From: a virus
Length of the DNA stretch: 28,135 nt
Virus record (IMG/VR): IMGVR_UViG_3300023178_000204
Location: 1 to 28,135 of that record
Strand: one strand, 5' to 3'
Positions 6,001 to 28,135 of the stretch are shown here, piece after piece (positions within the stretch are counted from its first letter, which is position 1; each line of letters opens with the position of its first letter). Both the position numbers and the translations under genes were made by a program. Under the pieces are notes generated by a model, which searched no databases, was not told the DNA's origin, and saw nothing but the letters and a program-made list of their open reading frames with translations.

Positions 6001-9000
6001 TATTGATGTTTCCAATTTAACAACAAATACTGGAATAGCAAAAACAATTCAAGATTCTTTTGGAGTAGTTATTAATAAAAATGACTATCCAGTTTTTGAA
6101 ACCACTATAGAGCCATCATTCTTTACTATTGGGGAAACTTTAATATCAAATGGTATAGAAAGAGACTTATCAGTTGTTAATCATGATATTAATACTCCAC
6201 TTAAACTTGCTGGTAGTTATGATTTGTCTGTAAATGAAAAGATTAGTGGTAAACTATCTGGAAACAGTGCGATAATAAAATCAATAATCAACTATTCTGG
6301 AAATTTTGATATTGATTATTCTTCTAAGAAGAATCAAGGATGGACTGATGAAATTGGTAAATTGAATGAAGATCATCAGGTATTGTCAGACAATGACTAT
6401 TATCAGAATTTGTCATACTCTGTGAAGAGCAGTCAACAATGGAAAGACATTAGAACTCCTGTTAATAGTTTAGTTCATATATCAGGATTGAAAAACTTCT
6501 CCGATACCGAAATACTCACAGTAGCAGATAAAATCGGTTTGGGGGGAACAGATCAAACCACAGTCATTAAAGATTATTTCTCCGAGAATAGAGTAGATAC
6601 AATTAATATTTTTGATTTTGTAAAAGATATTGATACATTTAGTGAAAAATCCAAATTCATTAAACTTCTGAATAAAAAATTAACAAACTTCACTGAGATT
6701 GGATCAAATATAGTATTGAGAATTGATGATATTAGTAGTCAGTTTTCAAACTTTGACTCAGAACCAAATCCATATGTAGATTTTGTTGAATTAGACAATA
6801 CAGATTCCTATCTAAACTATTTGATAAAAGTTTCAGATCTTAGTGGAAATGAAATTCAATTAACAAATGTCATCATTGTAAATGACAATATAAAAAATAA
6901 TTCTTTCATTCTTGAAAAACAATCTTTAACAAATCTAACATCTAATACCCAATATGGAGATTTCTCAATTGAGTCTAATTCATTTGGTGAGAGATATTTA
7001 AGGTTTACTCCAGAGGATCCTTTTAATACAGAATATGATATTAAGTATATTGAAAAGAGATTTATTTCTGGAACAGGAATAGGAACAACCTCGGTTGGAT
7101 TTGTTGACTTGACTTCAAATAGAAGTGAGGTATCTTCAGGAACAACTTCTACGGTACTGGAATTCTCTGCTAGTGATATTTCGTCGTTCTTTGTAAGTGC
7201 AAATATAATTCAAAGTGTGACAAATGAAATTAATTTTGTTGAATTGTATGTCACACATGATGGAACTAATACAAATATATCAGAGTACTATATTGCAAAT
7301 GATTTGGTTTCAGGAGCATCTTTTGATCAGATTGGAGTTGGATTTACTGCAAATATTTCTTCTGGAACATTATCATTAGATTACTACAATGATTCTTCTT
7401 TAGATATTACAATTGACTCTAGATCTATTGGATTTAGCACACCTCCAGGAGTCGGTATAGGGAGCACATATAGATTTTTAGCAGATGCTCAACCAGAAGG
7501 GTCGGAAAGGTCTGCAATTTATGAATCTATAAAGTATAGCACCAGTTCTGGATTATCAACAACTGTAGTTTCTTTAGATAAAAATTTATTTGATGCTGTA
7601 AATTCTATAGTTGAAATTACTACTGGATCAACCAAGTCTACTCATCAAGTATTTTTGGTTCAAGATGGAACTGACATATACACTCAACAGTATTCCATCA
7701 TTTCAATTGGTAGTACAATTGGCATAGGAACATTTGGTGGTGAATATGTAGGAACTGATAATTTTGAATTAAAATTCTATCCAGATTCAAACTTTACTGG
7801 AAATATAGACTTATTATCACTCAATGAGTGTTTATATAAAACTGTAGATTTTAGTAATCAATATTTGGATTTGAATTTTGGATTCTCAAATGAATCTGTA
7901 AAATCAACTGCATATTTCGCAATTAATGGAGATAGAACGAATAGAGTCAATTTTAAACTCAACAATAACAATACACCAATTTTTGCAAAAACATTTAATC
8001 CATCAAAATCGAATGTATTAAATGCCTCAACTGGAACATTTACAATAGAGAATAACTTCTTTAGTAATGGAGAAGAATTGGTTTATACTCCAGGATCCAC
8101 ATTTGTTGGTGTAGGATCTACTTCAATGCTCTTCGATAATGGATCATTTGTTGCCGAACTTCCTTCTCAAGTTTTCGCAGTTGTTGGATCCGGAAATACT
8201 AATAATTTCCAAATATCCACCACAAGATCTGGATCTCCGGTAACCTTCGCTTCTGTAGGAGAGGGAAATGCTCATAAATTTGCAATGGCAAAGAGAAATG
8301 AGAAATCGATTATTACAATTGATAACATTGTTCAATATCCAATTGCATTTACTAAAATAAGTCAAAATCTTACAAAGAATATTTCCGAAACAGATACATT
8401 TTTTACATTGAGTGGAATAAGCACCATCAATCCTTTAGATATTCTTAGAATTGATGATGAATATATGAATATTGTAAATGTTGGTTTAGGGACAGTTGAT
8501 GTTGGACCTATCACTAACACCGGATCGGAATTATTAGTTGAAGTTGAGAGAGGTTTTGTTGGATCATCTGCATCATCTCATACTAATACAACTCCTACTA
8601 GAATATACAAAGGTTCTTATGATATTGTTGGTGATGAAATATATTTCACAAAACCACCTAGAGGAAATCCAACAATAGTAAGAGATGGTAACAATTTAGT
8701 ACAAGAAACTTCAGATTTTACTGGTAGAGTATTCTTGAGAAGTAATTATGATACTAGCCAGGTTTACGATGATATTTCTGATGAATTTACCGGAATTGGA
8801 AGAACCTTTACATTGACTGTTGGTGGAGCAAATACAACTGGAATTGGATCAACTGGTGGAAACGGTATAGTTTTCCTAAATGGAATCTTCCAAACACCAA
8901 CAACTTCAAATAATCCAGAAAATAATTTCCAAATAATTGATAATTCCGTAATTGGTATTTCTTCTATAGTATTCAGTGGCATCAGAACAGATATCGATGA

Positions 9001-11134
9001 TCCTAATAGTAATTTAATTATAGAGAGTGATGTAAATCAAAACCAATTACCTAGAGGTGGAATAATTGTTTCTTTAGGATCTAGTGGTGGACTTGGATAT
9101 GCACCTCTGGCAGGTGCTGCAGTTACTGCAGTAATTAGTGGTGGAGTAATACAGAATAGTATTGGTATTGGAACAACAGACATTAGTGGATCTGGATACA
9201 ATAATGTAATATCAATTGGTGTTACTGCCTTTGACCCAACTGGTGCTGGTAGTGGAGCACTAATAAGTGCATCTGTAGGAGCTGGTGGAACATTATCATT
9301 TAATGTAACGAATGGTGGAGGAGGATACTCTGATGAAACTAGGATTTATGTCTCAGAACCTTCATATGAAAATCTTGAGATAACTGGAATTTCTAGACTT
9401 GGTGTTGGATCAACTACAGAGTCTGGAATAGGATTACTTCTGGATGTTGAGGTTGGAGCAAGTTCTACCACAGGAATTGGATCAACTTATTTTGAGGTTA
9501 CAAATTTCTCAATTAAGAGAAATGGATACTCCTTTAGAAGGGGAGATATATTCACTCCTGTTGGATTGGTAACTGATGGTAGATTGTCTTCACCATTATC
9601 ACAATTCCAACTAACCGTTTTAGACACATTTAGTGATAATTTTGGAGCATGGCAATTTGGTGAATTGGACTTCATAGATTCTTTGAAGAATTATCAAGAT
9701 GGAGTTAGAGTTACTTTCCCATTGTTCTATAATTCATCTTTATTGAGTTTTGAATTATCTGAAGATAATACTTCTATCGAATTAGCAAATTCTCTCATCA
9801 TTTTCATCAATGGAGTATTGCAAGATCCAGGAGTTTCATATACCTTTGAAGGTGGAACATCATTTACTTTCTCGACAGCTCCCAAACCAGAAGATAATAT
9901 TGCAGTATTTTTCTATAGAGGAACTAGAGGTTTAGATGATCTTTTGGTTACAAATGTATTGCCAACTCTAGAAAAAGGAGATTTTGTTAGAGTATATAAA
10001 AATAATAATATTAATGGAACTGAGACTCAGAATCAGAGAACTGTTTTCGATCTCTCTTTCTCTGATAAATTTGAGACAAATCCGTATACCTCCCAGGGAA
10101 TCGACATATCAAATCCAAAACCAATGTCTTGGACGAAACAAAAAAGTGACAGAATTATAAATGGAGAATTTGTTTATAAAACAAGACAATCAATTATATC
10201 TCAAATTTATCCAACTGCAAAAGTAATTGATAGTTTCTCAACATCAGATACAGAACTATTTGTTGATGATGCAGACTTATTTGATTATGATAGTCCAGAT
10301 CCATTTAGTGCAATTCTTGTTGATAACAAAGAAACTTCCAAGGGAGAAGTAACTGCAACTATTTCTGGTGGAAAGGTTAATGGATTGTCTATCACAAATT
10401 CTGGATCTGGATATGAACCTGGTGCAACAATTAATATTGGATTTGCCGCACCATTAACAATAGGTGTTGGTGTTGGTACAACTGCTACAGCAACCATCAC
10501 TGTTAATAGTTCTGGATCACTTACATCCCCCACAATAACAAATCCAGGATTGGGATATACAACTGAACCTTTAACTATAGTTCCAGCACCAGAGTCAAAT
10601 ATAGAAAGTATTTCTGCTATTAATAGTGTTAAGGGATTCTCCGGAATCATAACAGGAATAGAAGCAACTACAAATGGTGGACAATCAGCACTCAAATTCA
10701 ATCTTAAAACTTCTGGAGTATTCAACAATGGTACTAATACTTTATCAGTTGGATATCCAATTTTAGTTAAAAATACTAATGTTGGATCTGGTGCAGTTTC
10801 TGTTGACTCTACAGATTCTGATGTTGTTGCAATAGGAACTGCTTTCTTTGATAATATTTACTATGTACACCAAATAAGTGATGATGGGGGATTAAATGGT
10901 ATTGCAACATGCAATATATCTTCTTCTACAGACACTTCAAGTTTACCTGTAAGTGGAGACATTGTTGGAGAATTTTCTTGGGGTCGTCTTAACATCACTC
11001 AAAGATCATCTGGACCAATTTCAATTGCAGTCACCGGAAAAACTGTAGATGTTGGATTATCAACTTTCCCAACAATTCAAAGAAGAAGTCAGGGACTGAG
11101 ACAAACTGGATCAATTATTGAGAGATTAGATTAA
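2..11134 (+). CDS. Giant modular virion structural protein, 5'-truncated by window edge (gene 7 position of T4)
   Basis: The frame is open from base 2 to the TAA at 11132-11134, giving at least 3710 residues; the true start lies upstream of the window. It directly precedes gp8, where T4 has gene 7 (baseplate wedge, about 1030 residues), so a baseplate or baseplate-attached fibre role is inferred from synteny. I see no clear T4 gp7 sequence match. It is Asn/Ser/Thr/Gly-rich with almost no Cys and no membrane segment. Recurrent modules are: H-x-L/F-x-x-GD-x-V-x-Y units (about 500, 1205, 1550, 4214, 4499, 4682, 8054); GSGY-type units (about 900, 2513, 2755, 5353, 9184, 9310, 10396, 10540); a PA14-like domain (1619-2120); a YHYH-like domain (2971-3315); and an INGVLQ-type unit near 9808. 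The C-terminus (FPTIQRRSQGLRQTGSI) resembles the ends of other large marine myovirus structural proteins. A giant fibre unrelated to gp7 is the alternative. Confidence 0.85.
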   Translation, partial: DSFSGSTITLKKSVDRSQLKKGDQVEIIDRSTNSVVYPTTDDIPYVKQSISFGSKTVILENFSFIPGANTLYSLRRRINKSNSEYTEFKYGNDTIISDIQNLYSDGDFAYVASNSLPSAGVAYTDFTHNIKISLNESILNLDPNSPAGQLTDFDVDGFTTISFDKDVDFVTGDRIYYQPTQNETLGGLEVGFYYVEVLANRKNIKLYSASSSVGKSSNVLKISNPLTELSSHIFTIDSQNNRLLNSQNILKKFPLYQNIENGTNEDTLPGSTGMLINGVEILNYKTTDIIYYGPIDSVSVLNSGSGYDVINPPQIEISSGLGSTALVNPILSGTITEIFVDQQEFDIDEVLSVNVSGGNVSGGKFEPIVTTRKREILFDARSTSNGGGISTTTSQLTFLKNHNLSDGDEVFYNNNDNPNVSIGIGLSSLTNQSSYFIAVDNNTTIRLFDSYDNYLVNNPISFATTSLSGTHKFTTGNFRKTVSEIKVVDGGSLTNRELYVKSSGISTTNNLVNFKNHGFKSGELVEYAGAQDSSQQIKVGGIAGKFFNGTSWRSVISTGNIGTIPLTTDNDSSNVTGSAGMPDASYRFGVKVWPYIDFGPSIGNNYGWIGIGYFIPPVSGTYRFSTRSDDGSGVWIGDLALEGATRTKANAVVDNGMGTGHGAVTVTGDIALTAGVIYPIRIVHEEGGGGDEMDFKWRVEGGTGSEPGLNGTFTTDLTKYFYYGATSSGTVTGDFGGTLPIIGISTTNLYYALKIDDDSFRLCDAGIGGTITENLNQEKFIKFSDTGNGYQVFKYPDITVTLEYTSTGIGTTQSNSINLTPVVKGEIVDLSLYETGTGYGSSIINEERLPQFTIKNGKEAQVEPIIINGSITDVNLQFGGFEYFSVPNLEIRDPSGKGTGAKLRAIVSNGELSDVKIINPGIGYSTSSTINVVSSGSNAQFTSSVRKLYVNNVEKTQPNPQYQTFENRGENVQYFISGYSDNIRKTFVDNGSAFSKIIGWAYDGNPIYGSFGYNDPNDSNLGIKTLTSGYSKDLSNIFDRPSGFDLGFFVDDYRYDASGDLDINNGRFAKTPEFPEGIYAYHATINPDTLLPEFPYFIGNSFRSKLIQENEILNQSFDFNNSSLIRNTYPHNISETFADNNFIVESDEIIRQKTVVESISKGSVSGFDIINPGDDYKVGDELIFDNENTGGGQIKAQISAIQGKSLNQIDTSIETFSNTIFIWNESKVKGYVLPYHNLQNLDYITVSGFGTSKTSKLNDYHQITINPNPIIGLTTEIVGSGSTSTEIYVTSIPSNVSSGNSIGIGTEILEVLNVYPNKNILRVKRGLVGTSHTVGESVVIKNNSFTIDLELDYFESNLNEKIYFNPRESVGLGTTAGVGYSTSFTFGNESINRDIPTQRLYIENHPFRTNQKVTFNSNGHASLSIGNSPTDSFPIDSTLYIVNKSPNTIGVKTGITSEFGEVYFRSNGENFDDYYFETTYEQELGDIEKVTSVVSVSTSHGLSDGDKISLTVKPNLSVGIGTSTAVRVLYKEIIENIVINPIGFNSTGVSTATNEIIITDHELVTGDKVFYEDNILGTGEEYFIYKVDENTIKFCDTFKNANSNPPIVVSFASTGSSSQTISLINPQIQTVKNNNLVFDLSDSSLSGYEFKIYYDQEFNNEFVSTGSTSSFNISGVGTVGIASTASLTINYSSNFPQNLYYSLEKSGYISTSDKDVLNHSEISYIDSNYNGEYKVSDVEITTFKISLENKPEKSSYVKSDCDIFEYFTTSTSASGPAEKIKLISGGSGYISLPVLDRIESDNGENLAVNIKSNNIGNIESVRVINQGFEYSSDRTLEPQTFISPKLSLESSNKIANVNVVDGGKGFVVAPDIVAVNSDTREAVRNGLLVPDIVATSISTVDIEVATKGISDAGVELFTVNNSNGISIKEVTSTPTGIFTCSITTPLSGFSENPFKAGDQVFIEGIQKFSSDGDGFNSSDYGYKFLNVKSYDTSFADHQVTIDVSNLTTNTGIAKTIQDSFGVVINKNDYPVFETTIEPSFFTIGETLISNGIERDLSVVNHDINTPLKLAGSYDLSVNEKISGKLSGNSAIIKSIINYSGNFDIDYSSKKNQGWTDEIGKLNEDHQVLSDNDYYQNLSYSVKSSQQWKDIRTPVNSLVHISGLKNFSDTEILTVADKIGLGGTDQTTVIKDYFSENRVDTINIFDFVKDIDTFSEKSKFIKLLNKKLTNFTEIGSNIVLRIDDISSQFSNFDSEPNPYVDFVELDNTDSYLNYLIKVSDLSGNEIQLTNVIIVNDNIKNNSFILEKQSLTNLTSNTQYGDFSIESNSFGERYLRFTPEDPFNTEYDIKYIEKRFISGTGIGTTSVGFVDLTSNRSEVSSGTTSTVLEFSASDISSFFVSANIIQSVTNEINFVELYVTHDGTNTNISEYYIANDLVSGASFDQIGVGFTANISSGTLSLDYYNDSSLDITIDSRSIGFSTPPGVGIGSTYRFLADAQPEGSERSAIYESIKYSTSSGLSTTVVSLDKNLFDAVNSIVEITTGSTKSTHQVFLVQDGTDIYTQQYSIISIGSTIGIGTFGGEYVGTDNFELKFYPDSNFTGNIDLLSLNECLYKTVDFSNQYLDLNFGFSNESVKSTAYFAINGDRTNRVNFKLNNNNTPIFAKTFNPSKSNVLNASTGTFTIENNFFSNGEELVYTPGSTFVGVGSTSMLFDNGSFVAELPSQVFAVVGSGNTNNFQISTTRSGSPVTFASVGEGNAHKFAMAKRNEKSIITIDNIVQYPIAFTKISQNLTKNISETDTFFTLSGISTINPLDILRIDDEYMNIVNVGLGTVDVGPITNTGSELLVEVERGFVGSSASSHTNTTPTRIYKGSYDIVGDEIYFTKPPRGNPTIVRDGNNLVQETSDFTGRVFLRSNYDTSQVYDDISDEFTGIGRTFTLTVGGANTTGIGSTGGNGIVFLNGIFQTPTTSNNPENNFQIIDNSVIGISSIVFSGIRTDIDDPNSNLIIESDVNQNQLPRGGIIVSLGSSGGLGYAPLAGAAVTAVISGGVIQNSIGIGTTDISGSGYNNVISIGVTAFDPTGAGSGALISASVGAGGTLSFNVTNGGGGYSDETRIYVSEPSYENLEITGISRLGVGSTTESGIGLLLDVEVGASSTTGIGSTYFEVTNFSIKRNGYSFRRGDIFTPVGLVTDGRLSSPLSQFQLTVLDTFSDNFGAWQFGELDFIDSLKNYQDGVRVTFPLFYNSSLLSFELSEDNTSIELANSLIIFINGVLQDPGVSYTFEGGTSFTFSTAPKPEDNIAVFFYRGTRGLDDLLVTNVLPTLEKGDFVRVYKNNNINGTETQNQRTVFDLSFSDKFETNPYTSQGIDISNPKPMSWTKQKSDRIINGEFVYKTRQSIISQIYPTAKVIDSFSTSDTELFVDDADLFDYDSPDPFSAILVDNKETSKGEVTATISGGKVNGLSITNSGSGYEPGATINIGFAAPLTIGVGVGTTATATITVNSSGSLTSPTITNPGLGYTTEPLTIVPAPESNIESISAINSVKGFSGIITGIEATTNGGQSALKFNLKTSGVFNNGTNTLSVGYPILVKNTNVGSGAVSVDSTDSDVVAIGTAFFDNIYYVHQISDDGGLNGIATCNISSSTDTSSLPVSGDIVGEFSWGRLNITQRSSGPISIAVTGKTVDVGLSTFPTIQRRSQGLRQTGSIIERLD
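1619..2120 (+). other. PA14-like domain inside the giant protein
   Basis: Within the giant reading frame this segment begins GGIAGKFFNGTSW and continues through an aromatic/Gly core: GTYRFSTRSDDGSGVWIGD, then AGVIYPIRIVHEEGGGGD and FKWRVEGG. The order of these elements (strand with G-x-Y/F, the S-x-DDG-x-x-V/L-W-I loop, the G-x-x-YPIRI strand, and a final W) is that of PA14/GLEYA beta-sandwich domains. In PA14 lectins the Asp-Asp loop binds calcium and sugar; here the DDG loop is intact. A carbohydrate-binding role on the host surface is inferred from the family. The flanks look like the two halves of one GD-V-Y repeat module, so the domain appears to be an insertion. Confidence 0.75.
2971..3315 (+). 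other. YHYH-like domain inside the giant protein
   Basis: The encoded segment contains GWAYDGNPIYGSFGY, then an Asp-rich stretch DYRYDASGDLDINNGRF, then TPEFPEGIYAYHATINPD and FPYFIGNSF. This ordered set (DG-x-PIYG, L/D-x-x-NGR, TPEFP-x-G-x-Y-x-YH-x-T, FPY-x-x-G) is the signature of the YHYH domain, which occurs in secreted and surface proteins and in large marine phage structural proteins. The usual Cys in the CNGR-like motif is Asn here. The biochemical function of the family is not established to my knowledge, so I assign none. It is preceded and followed by the repeat modules of the giant protein. Confidence 0.7.
5676..5720 (+). repeat. 16-bp perfect inverted repeat within the giant gene
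   Basis: The left arm 5676-5691 (TTGTTGCAACTTCAAT) is the exact reverse complement of the right arm 5705-5720 (ATTGAAGTTGCAACAA), with a 13-base spacer. The arms encode part of IVATSISTVDIEVATK, so the stem lies fully within coding sequence. The left arm overlaps the second of two direct PDIVA-encoding copies exactly 60 bases apart (5611 and 5671). It could form an mRNA or ssDNA hairpin, or it could be the scar of a template-switch event. Confidence 0.8.
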
Positions 11135-20503: not shown

Positions 20504-20839
20504 ATGGCAGTTTATGTATCCAATATTGTAATTGAACAAGGATACGATTTTGAAACGTCGTTTCAATTAGAAGATACAAGGACGAATTCACCTTTGAATT
20601 TATCCGGAACAACTAGTGATGGCCAATTAAGAAAGCATCATGGTGCTTCCACTGCAGTATCTTTTGCATCCTCTGTAACAAACCCAACTAGTGGAACTAT
20701 AACTATTTCTCTCACCAATGCACAAACAGTTAATTTAAAACCGGGAAGATATGTTTACGATGTAAAAATATTATCTGCTGGAAAAGAGTATAAAGCTGTA
20801 GAGGGAGCAGCACTAGTAAGAGCAGGGGTAACAAGGTAA
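20504..20839 (+). CDS. Small beta-domain virion protein, BppU-N-like (hypothetical), 111 aa
   Basis: The first gene after the late promoter. The sequence opens MAVYVSNIVIEQGYDFETSF and alternates beta strands with turns: LNLSGTTSDGQLRKHHGA, then TSGTITISLTNAQTVNLKPG, then RYVYDVKIL and a final VEGAALVRAGVTR. The pattern (IEQG-x-x-F, L-x-G, a-x-LRKH, GR-Y-x-YDV, VEG-x-x-V-x-x-G-V-T) resembles the small Ig-like N-terminal domain of phage upper-baseplate proteins (BppU) and free-standing copies that I recall in marine myoviruses. A structural adaptor linking the next gene's fibre to the virion is the likely role, inferred from fold and position. The stop overlaps the next start (TAATG). Confidence 0.75.
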   Translation: MAVYVSNIVIEQGYDFETSFQLEDTRTNSPLNLSGTTSDGQLRKHHGASTAVSFASSVTNPTSGTITISLTNAQTVNLKPGRYVYDVKILSAGKEYKAVEGAALVRAGVTR

Positions 20840-21855
20840 TGCCTAGTATAAACGATAGAATTGGTTCTCAAAATGTAATTCGTGTATTATCTAATGCTTC
20901 TTCGCCACCAACGAAGTTAATCAATCTAAGTGACGTTGATTCTACTTTATCAGTAAGAGATGGAATGATCCTTGTATGGGATCTTGACAGTGAAACTTTT
21001 GTAATGACGGATACGATAGATTCGTCAACTTTAATTGCAACTGGTATTGTAACTTTTTCCAATACCACACAATCAAATTCAATTACAACAGGTGCACTAG
21101 TTGTTGACGGTGGACTTGGAATTGGAAAAAATCTCAATGTTGGTGGAAACTTTAAAGTTACTGGATTATCTACATTTATATCTGATGTTGATATTGATGC
21201 AAATGTAGATATTTTATATTCTTTAACTGTAAACTCTACCTTCAAAACTGTAGGAGTTACAACTTTAGCTTCATCAGGAGGAATTACAACAACTGGTGGA
21301 GATTTTTATGCTGGTGGTGCCGCATTTATTAATACAAATCTAAGAGTTGGTGGAACTTCCGAATTTATTGGAAATGCCACTTTTAGAGGTGGAACAATTG
21401 GAATTGGTGATTCCATAAGTGATGATATTAATGTTGGTGGTGAGTTTGTATCTAATTTGGTTCCAAATGACGATGCAACGTATGATCTTGGTATTACAAC
21501 ACAGAGATGGAGAAATGGACAATTCTCTGGATTATTAACAAGTTCAACTTTACATGTTTCTGATACAGTAACTCTTGATGGTCAAGTCAATCTAACTTCA
21601 AATTTAGAAGTAACTGGAGTAACGACATTTAACAATAATGTAGATGTTGTTGGTTTTGTTTCGGTAACTGAAGGATTATATTATGATGCAGACGATTATG
21701 ATGGTCCTAATGGAATTGCATACTTTGATAATACCGGAAAACTCATAGGAGCTGCAAGTACAGAAAATGCTCTTACTGAAAGTTTCTTTGTACTAACAAC
21801 AAATGCAGTTGGGATTCCAACTTGGACATCAGTAATTGATGGAGGATTATTCTAG
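20839..21855 (+). CDS. Fibre-like protein with beta repeats, 338 aa
   Basis: The N-terminus (PSINDRIGSQNVIRVLSNAS) is short, followed by LINLSDVDSTLSVRDGMILVWD, an attachment-type segment common in marine phage fibres. From about residue 75 to 280 it repeats short units of the form L-x-V-x-G-x-x-x-F/I-x-x-x-V-x-V/I: VVDGGLGIGKNLNVGGNFKV, TGLSTFISDVDID, LRVGGTSEFIGNATF, LEVTGVTTFNNNVDVVG. These are typical of trimeric beta-helical fibre shafts. YDLGITTQRWRNGQFSG near 215 is the motif often found before fibre tips. No S74-type chaperone domain is visible. Sitting immediately before gp13, it takes the place of T4 wac/gene 12, but I see no homology to either. Which structure it attaches to is unknown. 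Confidence 0.8.
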   Translation: MPSINDRIGSQNVIRVLSNASSPPTKLINLSDVDSTLSVRDGMILVWDLDSETFVMTDTIDSSTLIATGIVTFSNTTQSNSITTGALVVDGGLGIGKNLNVGGNFKVTGLSTFISDVDIDANVDILYSLTVNSTFKTVGVTTLASSGGITTTGGDFYAGGAAFINTNLRVGGTSEFIGNATFRGGTIGIGDSISDDINVGGEFVSNLVPNDDATYDLGITTQRWRNGQFSGLLTSSTLHVSDTVTLDGQVNLTSNLEVTGVTTFNNNVDVVGFVSVTEGLYYDADDYDGPNGIAYFDNTGKLIGAASTENALTESFFVLTTNAVGIPTWTSVIDGGLF

Positions 21856-25376: not shown

Positions 25377-27200
25377 ATGAAAAAGTGTAAGCAGGGATAC
25401 TATTATTGTTACACCGAAAAGAAGTGTAAGAAGATACCTATGGGATATCATCTAGGTGCTCGTGGTTATCTTGCAAAAGATAACGATAATGACAATGAGG
25501 GTGAAGATACCACTAAAAATGGTAACGGCGATGGCAATGGTAGTAACGGCAATGGTGGTGGAACCGTAAGTGAAGAGGGACTCCGTGATTGGTTCGGAAA
25601 GTCTAAATCAAAAGATGGTAAAAGGGGTTGGGTCAACGTTGTAACGGGTGGAACCTGTGCAAGTGATGAACCTGGTGAAGGAACTCCAAAATGCGTCTCT
25701 TCTGCCAAGAGAGCATCAATGACTAAAGCAGAAAGACTCTCCGCTCAGAGAAGAAAAAAGAAGGCAGATCCAGGACAACAGCAAAAATCTGGTGCTGCAA
25801 AACCAACATATGTTTCAACAGACTCTAAGAAGAAAATGAAAAAAGAGGAAGTAGAAGTAACTGAAGCAAAAGATAAAAAAGGTAAGGGTAGTGGATCTAA
25901 AGATGCTTGTTACCATAAGGTCAAGTCTCGTTATTCTGTATGGCCTTCTGCATATGCCTCAGGTGCTCTGGTTAAGTGCCGTAAGGTTGGTGCTGCCAAC
26001 TGGGGAAATAAATCAGAATCTGTAGAATTTTCTAATTGGAGAGATGATTTTAAGGCAACTGAATATGAGTTCACTGATATTATCAAACCAGAACCAATTA
26101 AGGGTGGAGTAATTGAAGAAGGTTCTTTCAGCATTGATCCCAAAGCACATAGACAAGCGCAAAGAGAAAAGAAAATTAGAGATAGAACTAAAACAGGAGA
26201 TGAAGGATCTTCAATAGCAAAGACAAAAACAAAAGGTCCTGACCTGATGGGTGAGGAGCAGATTGAAGAAGGTCAGAAGTGTTGGAAGGGATATGAAAAG
26301 AAAGGCACTAAAAAGATGTTTGGTAAGACCTATAACAACTGTGTCAAGAAAGAAGATGCAGACCTAGAGCAGATGCAGAAAGATGCTGCTGCTAATCGTG
26401 ATAGAGCAGCAAAGGCAAAGAAGAATACTGTAACCAAAGGTTCTGCTGCTTTTGCCGCTGCTAAGGTTGCAGATGATGTAAAGAAGGCAGCAAGAACTGG
26501 TCCCCAACAACATAAAGGACCCAGAACTGGTGTGAAAAGAATTCAAAAAGAGGGTTATGGAGTTGGTCAAGTTGACCAGAAAGTTGGTGCTGTCACTGCT
26601 ATTCCTAAGAAAGAGCAGGATGCTGCAAAAGCAAGATTACTTGCAAAAGCAAAAGCAAAACGTGAGAAAATGAAAGAAGAAAATGAAATCGATGAGGCAA
26701 AGCACACACCAACAAAATCAGATTTAGAATCAAAAATCGGTGGAGGCAACCTCAAGAAACTTTCAAAAAAAGCATCAACAAGAATTGATTATGATGTTGA
26801 CGGTGATGTAGATCCACAAGATAAAGTTGAGAAGTCAAAAGGTGATTATGGTGAGGAACTTCCAACTCCATTTGGTAAGTTTAGAACTGGAGATTCTAAA
26901 AAGGTAAAAGTTAAAAAAGAAAGTCTTGCAAATTGGAGAAACGAAATTGAAGAAGGAGCAGCATGGACAAAAAAGTCCGGTAAGTCCGAGTCAGGCGGAC
27001 TTAATGAGAAGGGCAGGAAGTCCTATGAGAGAGAAAATCCAGGAAGCGACCTTAAGGCACCTTCAAAGAAAGTTGGGAACCCTCGTAGAAAGAGTTTTTG
27101 TGCGAGAATGAAAGGTATGAAGAAGAAACTAACTAGTAGTAAGACTGCTAATGATCCTGATAGCAGAATCAATAAGTCCCTTAGAGCTTGGAACTGCTGA
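25377..27200 (+). CDS. Lys-rich modular protein with four prohead-protease-like sites; possible internal-head polyprotein
   Basis: Encodes 607 residues, strongly basic, with alternating Cys-containing modules and low-complexity linkers. The order is: KKCKQGYYYCYTEKKCKKIP at 2-21; an Asp/Asn/Gly linker (34-63); a GLRDWFGKSKSKDGKRGWVN module with two Cys (68-106); a Cys module with SRYSVWPSAYASGALVKCRK (178-203); SNWRDDF (219-225); KCWKGYEKKGTKKMFGKTYN with NNC (301-322); an Ala/Lys-rich stretch (335-435); a canonical EF-hand loop at 471-482 (DYDVDGDVDPQD); and a Cys-containing C-terminus (FCARMKGMKKKLTSSKTAND). Four sites fit the T4 gp21 rule I/L-x-E then G or A: after residues 248, 298, 440 and 526. 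The start ATG follows a T-rich 15-base gap. Gene 17 should follow gp16 in T4, so this is an insertion. Function is not established; a packaged internal protein is my inference. Confidence 0.75.
   Translation: MKKCKQGYYYCYTEKKCKKIPMGYHLGARGYLAKDNDNDNEGEDTTKNGNGDGNGSNGNGGGTVSEEGLRDWFGKSKSKDGKRGWVNVVTGGTCASDEPGEGTPKCVSSAKRASMTKAERLSAQRRKKKADPGQQQKSGAAKPTYVSTDSKKKMKKEEVEVTEAKDKKGKGSGSKDACYHKVKSRYSVWPSAYASGALVKCRKVGAANWGNKSESVEFSNWRDDFKATEYEFTDIIKPEPIKGGVIEEGSFSIDPKAHRQAQREKKIRDRTKTGDEGSSIAKTKTKGPDLMGEEQIEEGQKCWKGYEKKGTKKMFGKTYNNCVKKEDADLEQMQKDAAANRDRAAKAKKNTVTKGSAAFAAAKVADDVKKAARTGPQQHKGPRTGVKRIQKEGYGVGQVDQKVGAVTAIPKKEQDAAKARLLAKAKAKREKMKEENEIDEAKHTPTKSDLESKIGGGNLKKLSKKASTRIDYDVDGDVDPQDKVEKSKGDYGEELPTPFGKFRTGDSKKVKVKKESLANWRNEIEEGAAWTKKSGKSESGGLNEKGRKSYERENPGSDLKAPSKKVGNPRRKSFCARMKGMKKKLTSSKTANDPDSRINKSLRAWNC
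26787..26822 (+). other. EF-hand-type calcium-binding loop
   Basis: Twelve residues (471-482 of the 607-residue protein) read DYDVDGDVDPQD. This fits the EF-hand loop rule: Asp at 1, 3 and 5, Gly at 6, Val at 8 and an acidic residue at 12. The flanking helices of a full EF hand are not obvious, since basic KKLSKKASTRI precedes and QDKVEKSKGDY follows, so it may be a dockerin-like or isolated loop. Confidence 0.6.
26981..27003 (+). repeat. 8-bp perfect inverted repeat in the modular gene
   Basis: TAAGTCCG (26981-26988) and CGGACTTA (26996-27003) pair perfectly around a 7-base loop. An extra AAGTCCG copy at 26972-26978 could compete for the same right arm, giving two alternative hairpins. It is fully coding, and no regulatory role is demonstrated. 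Confidence 0.55.
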
Positions 27201-27201
27201 T

Positions 27202-27510
27202 ATGAAAAACTTTAAACAATTTCTTTCAGAAAGCATCACTATTAATGGTGATTTTAACGGAACACTAACTTACGGAGGTGCACCTGCCCAAGAACAGACA
27301 CAAGAGTCATTCTATGCTGATGTTGTCTGGGAAGGTAAAATCTACCGTCTAGAAGTAGAAGGTAGCATGATGAATAAAAATGAACTTGCAGAACATATTC
27401 AGGGTGAGTATCCTGGAGCAATTGTTCACCAGATTTATCCTCGTGTAGAATCTAATAGAATTAAAAGTTCTTCAAGGTATCAACCAGAAAAATTAACTTG
27501 GAGTGACTGA
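27202..27510 (+). CDS. Small protein with T4-like capsid targeting sequence, 102 aa (putative internal head protein)
   Basis: The ATG at 27202 is chosen because it starts one base after the previous stop and gives MKNFKQFLSES. An in-frame ATG at 27151 would overlap the upstream gene by 50 bases and bury this peptide. MKNFKQFLSE closely matches the T4 internal-protein capsid targeting sequence (MKTYQEFIAE in IPIII), which directs proteins into the prohead core and is removed by protease gp21 after the Glu. The remaining 92 residues have ITINGDFNGTLTYGG, then YADVVWEGKIYRLEVEG and NELAEHIQGEYPGAIVHQIY, a mixed alpha/beta pattern with no enzyme motif. Small proteins of this type occur near the terminase genes in T4-like marine phages as I recall them. 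The stop shares its A with the next start (TGATG). Confidence 0.8.
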   Translation: MKNFKQFLSESITINGDFNGTLTYGGAPAQEQTQESFYADVVWEGKIYRLEVEGSMMNKNELAEHIQGEYPGAIVHQIYPRVESNRIKSSSRYQPEKLTWSD

Positions 27511-28135
27511 TGGCACAGTGGAATAAGGATACACAAGCATATCTAAATCAAACAAAGACAAACTTTGAAGTTTATATGTGTGCCGATAAGTATGGCAACA
27601 TTGGTGCTTGTGGTGGGGATACACAATTTGATCTAAATGTTGCTGCTGGTATTACAACCCAGATTGCAAACGTTCATAAGTTTGGTGCAGTTCTTACTAG
27701 TTCAGCAGATTATGATACTGTTTGGACTGAAGGAGGAGCATATACATTCCCATCCACGGCAGGAATTGTTACAGTAACTTCCAGTTCTTCTCAAGATGAT
27801 AGTGGAGGAACGGGAGCACTTACAGTCAGACTTCAAGGTCTTGATGCAAACTACAATGAAGTAGAAGAAGATTTTACTCTTAATGGAACTGTCGGTGTTG
27901 CTGGAACGGTAGAATTTTTAAGAACTCATAGAGCATTTATTCTTACTGGTAACAATGACAATAATAACGTAGGTACTATTAACTTCACTCATAGTGTTGG
28001 AGTTACTTGTCAGATTGCAGCGGGAATGGGTCAATCTCAAGTTACTTTCTATACTGTTCCCGCAGGTAAGAGTGGTTATCTTAGAGCATTTGCTGCAACG
28101 ATGAATAAAAACCAAGAAAACACTGTTAGATTATT
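27510..28135 (+). CDS. Beta-rich virion protein, 3'-truncated by window edge
   Basis: The ATG at 27510 overlaps the preceding TGA and has a good ribosome site (GGAG at 27500, six bases away). The frame is open to the window end, so at least 208 residues are seen. It begins MAQWNKDTQAYLNQTKTNFE and contains STAGIVTVTSSSSQDDSGGT, then GALTVRLQGLDANYNEVEED and FTLNGTVGVAGTVEFLRTHR, then AAGMGQSQVTFYTVPAGKSG. The pattern (SSS-x-x-D-x-x-GTGA-x-T-V-x-GLD-x-x-Y-x-E, LNGT, G-x-GQ-x-x-x-x-YTVPAG) is widespread in phage virion proteins, mostly annotated only as structural or hypothetical. A surface-exposed head decoration or fibre-associated role is plausible but not shown. The large terminase gene 17 is expected further downstream. 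Confidence 0.85.
   Translation, partial: MAQWNKDTQAYLNQTKTNFEVYMCADKYGNIGACGGDTQFDLNVAAGITTQIANVHKFGAVLTSSADYDTVWTEGGAYTFPSTAGIVTVTSSSSQDDSGGTGALTVRLQGLDANYNEVEEDFTLNGTVGVAGTVEFLRTHRAFILTGNNDNNNVGTINFTHSVGVTCQIAAGMGQSQVTFYTVPAGKSGYLRAFAATMNKNQENTVRL

Follow-up and report, generated by a model that had tools for sequence, protein, structure and literature searches.

A DUF6321-family modular protein of T4-like marine phages as a candidate cargo polyprotein of the prohead core

The gene at 25377..27200 (plus strand) of the analysed virus DNA encodes a modular protein of 607 aa, P0001, whose best reading is a cargo polyprotein that is packaged in the phage head and cut by gp21. This reading, which is drawn from sequence comparison, is probably correct. 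In this reading, P0001 consists of several small, mostly basic modules, the majority of which contain a Cys pair, and flexible linkers ending in [I/L/V]-x-E connect them. It would be packed into the prohead core, where a gp21-type protease would cut it at most junctions during head maturation, and the resulting separate small proteins would stay with the DNA, possibly as DNA-binding proteins or for delivery into the host. Other T4-like phages would make their own versions through module swapping at the cut sites. The combination of shuffled, mostly basic modules with a T4-type protease motif between them suggests that the protein is probably packed in the immature head and chopped there. A prohead-protease polyprotein had already been proposed in the first-pass annotation of this DNA, and the placement of the motif, relatives in virions, the targeting sequence of a companion gene and a free-standing form of the end module are all in agreement with it; its picture of uniformly basic, Cys-bearing fragments, however, does not hold.

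The gene product and its predicted fragments

The window, i.e., the whole stretch of DNA that was analysed, is a virus record of 28,135 bases which harbours a T4-like structural gene cluster. Within it, the polyprotein gene (T4-GC119/DUF6321 family) is an intact open reading frame, with coordinates, length and residues exactly as first annotated, and its product has a pI of 9.7 and a net charge of +50. Residues 535-605 correspond to DUF6321 (PF19846; 80 bits against a gathering cut-off of 28.5, E = 2.1e-22). No other Pfam family scored above its cut-off, and no enzymatic Pfam domain is present. PHROG 727 and 3477 were also strong matches; like DUF6321, these families come without a function or mechanism. 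Core families of the gp22/gp67/gp68 type were not matched in Pfam or PHROGs, sequence searches against solved structures gave only chance-looking matches, and a search of anti-phage defence families gave nothing convincing. The N-terminus of P0001 reads MKKCKQGYYYC and lacks a capsid-targeting sequence, which only the adjacent gene (27202-27510) has.

Five sites, VTE|A at 163/164, IEE|G at 248/249, 298/299 and 526/527 and IDE|A at 440/441, were all found where the first-pass annotation had placed them. That list had overlooked an additional junction, VSE at residue 66, although E66 is kept in 26 of 28 aligned homologues and is among the best-conserved junctions. Moreover, sites 248 and 440 fall in optional stretches which few homologues have, and can thus not be regarded as general junctions; in one homologue (L005) the I-x-E of site 440 is replaced by ING.

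Cutting at these sites would yield seven fragments, all encoded on the plus strand. The first (residues 1-66; 25377..25574) comprises an N-terminal three-Cys module and a Gly/Asn linker and ends in VSE|E. Residues 67-163 (25575..25865) contain the LRDWF module with Cys 94/106, have a net charge of +10 and end in VTE|A, while residues 164-248 (25866..26120) contain the DACYHKV..VKCRK module with Cys 178/201 and an NWRDDF element and end in the non-general IEE|G. An optional insert (249-298; 26121..26270; IEE|G end) precedes the CWKGYEKKG module with Cys 302/322 and Lys/Ala-rich helices (299-440; 26271..26696; net charge +17), whose IDE|A end is likewise not general. Residues 441-526 (26697..26954) hold a Ca-loop-like DYDVDGDVD region and a LANWRNEIEE element, and residues 527-607 (26955..27197) represent the DUF6321 module with Cys 575/607, a net charge of +15 and a possible extra site, LNE|K, at 544. 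The earlier expectation of five or six peptides, all small, basic and with Cys, was therefore too strong. Cys is absent from the predicted fragments 249-298 and 441-526, and three fragments are near neutral (1-66, net +1; 249-298, net +1; 441-526, net +2). The proposed EF-hand region consists of a single Ca-loop-like stretch (DYDVDGDVDPQD), and EF-hand families gave no match.

P0001 alone has five occurrences of the pattern [ILV].E[GAS], where shuffling predicts 1.3 (p = 0.007). No excess of this pattern was seen in the larger proteins of the window, and a narrower pattern was weakly in excess in the ORF at 20839-21855. The AlphaFold model of P0001 has a pTM of 0.20, with confident islands at residues 1-36, around CW, at 411-440 and at 565-607. 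Five of the six main sites (66, 163, 248, 298 and 526) are located in segments with a pLDDT below 50, and site 440 is near a helix end. This placement fits exposed linkers, but by itself it weighs little because about half of the P0001 residues have a pLDDT below 50.

Module shuffling, the junction motif and free-standing end modules

Relatives of P0001 were found by tblastn in 495 phage records and occur in hundreds of marine phages. The homologues at 80 IMG/VR loci were read, and most of the recovered frames encode about 330 to 1,250 aa and differ from each other in the modules that they have gained, lost or exchanged. When the homologues were cut at the motif, 29 fragment families with at least three members resulted. 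The family of the CW module was found next to 36 different upstream and 38 different downstream neighbour families, and some relatives of P0001 even include a DUF192 domain.

Among 71 non-redundant homologues [ILV].E[GAS] occurs 208 times against 83 expected (2.5-fold, z = 13.5), although these counts, like those given below for breakpoints and modules, overstate independence, as the homologues are related and not phylogenetically independent. In the same proteins the D and R versions of the pattern were depleted and the K version was as frequent as expected. Module breakpoints were defined as sharp ends of ungapped matches with differing neighbours beyond, and thus without use of the motif. 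[ILVMF].E was present within -2..+4 of 36% and 31% of 593 and 573 non-redundant breakpoints, respectively, compared to 14% of random places. Against locally shuffled residues, the exact spacing reached z = 16-22 at the breakpoints and a two-residue spacing 5-6, while the controls [ILVMF]E or [ILVMF].K stayed at about -1 to 2. For individual modules, [ILVMF].E was found at most 5 aa upstream of the CW module in 57 of 58 distinct contexts, and a site precedes the AVR module in 22/22 and CWDTHK in 9/9; two module types, SKIGGGN (2/8) and GYxxGDVDQKV (1/5), usually have no preceding motif. End-to-end matching of fragments over all homologues separated true sites (0.89) only poorly from shifted or decoy cuts (0.80-0.87). 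The first-pass annotation had suggested examining whether I/L-x-E is conserved at module boundaries of homologues, and the motif indeed tracks the junctions far above chance and far above near-miss motifs. As in substrates of a T4-like gp21, L/I-x-E is found at the sites above chance.

DUF6321 also exists as a separate gene of 81-102 aa, which starts near the module boundary and contains no [ILVMF].E, in T7-like and other phages (P-SCSP1k, KBS-P-1A, S-CBP4, HTVC031P, HTVC103P, HTVC104P, EXVC031P, Skadi-6, MEP402 and MaMV-DL01). Per 100 aa, 59 free forms of DUF6321 contain 0.16 [ILVMF].E motifs and 58 fused forms 1.98. T7-like phages are not known to have a gp21-type protease, and phages with a free-standing DUF6321 are expected to lack the T4-type protease. 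In several small phages the free-standing gene is located near scaffold or capsid genes. The residue following GGLN is E in 56/58 fused and 6/59 free forms, and mostly A or K in the latter. This points to LNE|K at 544 as a possible additional site, with the contrast between fused and free forms being confounded by relatedness.

The companion gene and relatives in virions

Directly downstream of the polyprotein gene, a companion gene (27202..27510, plus strand) encodes a protein of 102 aa that starts with a T4-type capsid-targeting sequence, MKNFKQFLSE|S, followed by an AVR/YPGA-like core. M1, K2, F4, F7 and E10 are invariant among 15 homologues of this gene and coincide with positions of the T4 targeting sequence that are important for targeting (residues 4 and 7) and for cutting (residues 8 and 10) (PMC9026906). 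A comparison of the companion core with the AVR module by hhalign gave E = 3.6e-10, with 20 shuffled controls at 0.035 or worse. The AVR/YPGA module is present inside 26 polyproteins and in all 26 stands directly after [ILVM]xE. The homology of core and module hence means that the same module follows either a targeting site or an internal junction. Matches of the companion-gene model to predicted structures of DUF6321 polyproteins, including the one of S-SCSM1, were also obtained. In related genes with a targeting sequence, the site is followed by a copy of the gp23 N-arm, with polyprotein modules at the far end. Such N-arm copies (GFTG..GPxAGYDPLM or PTNSVGNGGYTSAGGQTVAGYD), possibly shell-binding peptides, were seen in several virion or targeting-sequence proteins (L084 14338-15231; S-SCSM1 gene 97, 93121-93306 of MK867354.2; L082 18880-19308; L037 and L038).

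It might be argued that P0001 is an intact multi-domain virion protein, with its E-rich linkers being mere spacers that are never cut. The linkers are generally acidic and flexible, breakpoints show some enrichment of [ILVMF]..E and further E patterns as well, and published work on purified virions yielded no termini for module-sharing proteins, at a peptide coverage of 4-13%. Yet the one-residue spacing and the E stand out against D, K, other spacings and local shuffles, the motif is almost missing from free-standing DUF6321 genes, and a targeting sequence with the same motif precedes the AVR module as well, which together make an uncut protein unlikely.

The companion-gene model also resembles T7 Gp2 (E = 0.044). 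The high-ranking matches (E = 0.044 and weaker) include several entries for Gp2 as well as YkzG, which binds RNA polymerase, and proteins named RNA polymerase inhibitor in a viral library reached E of about 0.05. This likeness is a lead only. A speculative extension, which appears rather improbable, is that marine cyanophages use the T4-type targeting and gp21 system as a modular delivery chain, with effectors between I-x-E sites being freed in the head, a T7 Gp2-like RNA polymerase inhibitor fold (AVR/YPGA, companion) being among the cargo, and the fragments being injected for immediate action on the host.

The next gene (27510..28135, plus strand), of which only the start is included before the window ends, resembles SSCSM1_31 and S-CREM2 gp176; a GLDA[ND]YN stretch in common with these virion proteins was recognised by eye. 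S-SKS1 and S-SCSM1 have the order polyprotein, targeting gene, virion protein family and gp17, with which the window agrees as far as it is covered. A gp21 gene is present in S-SM2, S-SCSM1 and S-CREM2; the window stops before gp21. The polyprotein gene of S-SKS1, the closest isolate, has a frameshift inside the CW module (L095 8001-9328), which is either natural or a sequencing error.

Relatives of P0001 have been found in virions. Purified S-CREM2 virions contained gp160 (7 unique peptides) and gp137 (4) (PMC10665884), of which gp160 has three modules in common with P0001 and gp137 carries the end module. The S-SCSM1 homologue SSCSM1_29 is annotated as virion protein, as are other module-sharing proteins of this phage; the roughly 48 such labels compare with 45 proteins identified by mass spectrometry and are consistent, albeit not identical, with the proteome. 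Strict N-terminal targeting-like sequences occur in 7 of 219 S-CREM2 proteins, and the virion proteome includes five of these seven but only 47 of the 212 others (p = 0.009). If the aromatic positions are not required, a motif within the first 35 residues does not predict virion presence in S-CREM2. In this clade, gp23 carries [IL][AT]E|[AQ]PT at the expected start of its mature N-arm. Two further virion proteins are worth recording. S-CREM2 gp12 (7704-10313, minus strand, OR473000.1, L086), which is annotated as Cas9 and present in virions, has a targeting-like sequence, RFASFMAE|A, near its N-terminus. S-SCSM1 gene 93 (L090 27627-27836; 69 aa; labelled virion protein) is a free-standing PAVSKKQQRF module with a targeting-like tail, RTFKEFLEYIE; this module is also found inside longer polyproteins.

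S-CREM2 virions contain scaffold and protease as well (PMC10665884), and presence in the virion is thus no proof of retention as functional cargo. P0001 could instead resemble a scaffold and act in the core in the manner of T4 gp22 or gp67; it would then help to build the prohead and be cut by gp21, with most fragments leaving and the modules not being cargo. This would fit with T4 core proteins being cut into many pieces (PMC9026906), with gp22 remnants being seen in S-CREM2 virions as well (PMC10665884) and with the scaffold or capsid genes near free-standing DUF6321. However, the conservation of the paired-Cys modules and the swapping of unlike modules, DUF192 included, suggest folded units with functions of their own. 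T4 gp22 is, moreover, acidic and P0001 strongly basic. A scaffold role has as small a chance of being correct as an uncut protein. A tail or neck component, as the position beside gp13-gp16 with neck and tail genes among the neighbours might imply, is highly improbable given that the gp16-gp17 interval is a variable insertion spot (PMC3037559), that gp160 is located elsewhere in S-CREM2 and that several small phages have capsid or scaffold genes close to their free-standing DUF6321.

Significance and comparison with known systems

A search of the literature, with subscription journals mostly outside its reach, found no prior description. Of the phage records searched, 558 encode proteins with the end module; these records are mostly of marine cyanophages, and almost every protein among those listed carries the annotation hypothetical. 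Should the fused forms prove to be cargo chains that are cut in the head, this would account for their puzzling variability, define a group of small proteins that probably reach the host together with the DNA, and give part of the gp16-gp17 insertion spot a clear, testable role.

Polyvalent proteins (Iyer et al., 2017; PMC5512222) are also multi-domain proteins with shuffled domains that are thought to be packaged and injected. Many of their domains are enzymatic, and some include a peptidase of their own (PMC5512222), whereas the P0001 family consists of tiny Cys modules which the head protease would process; P0001 does not have the disparate, largely enzymatic domains that characterise polyvalent proteins. 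In phiKZ and SPN3US, a gp21 relative cuts inner-head and ejection proteins after short motifs ending in E, in some cases at multiple sites, and the cargo is ejected (PMC9026906, PMC5694885). There, however, the motif is S/A-x-E or A-x-E, and it is mostly long N-terminal propeptides that are removed rather than chains of small modules that are divided (PMC9026906, PMC5694885).

The internal proteins IPI-IPIII and Alt of T4 are packed into the prohead core and released by gp21 at L/I-x-E, and the companion gene has just such a targeting sequence. Each of them is a single protein with one site at its N-terminus (Alt has a C-terminal one in addition), unlike P0001, in which many unlike modules are chained, the sites are internal and an N-terminal targeting sequence is absent. 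The T4 core proteins gp22, gp67 and gp68 are cut by gp21 at several places, as is predicted for P0001. What sets the P0001 family apart from them is the exchange of modules between phages at the sites.
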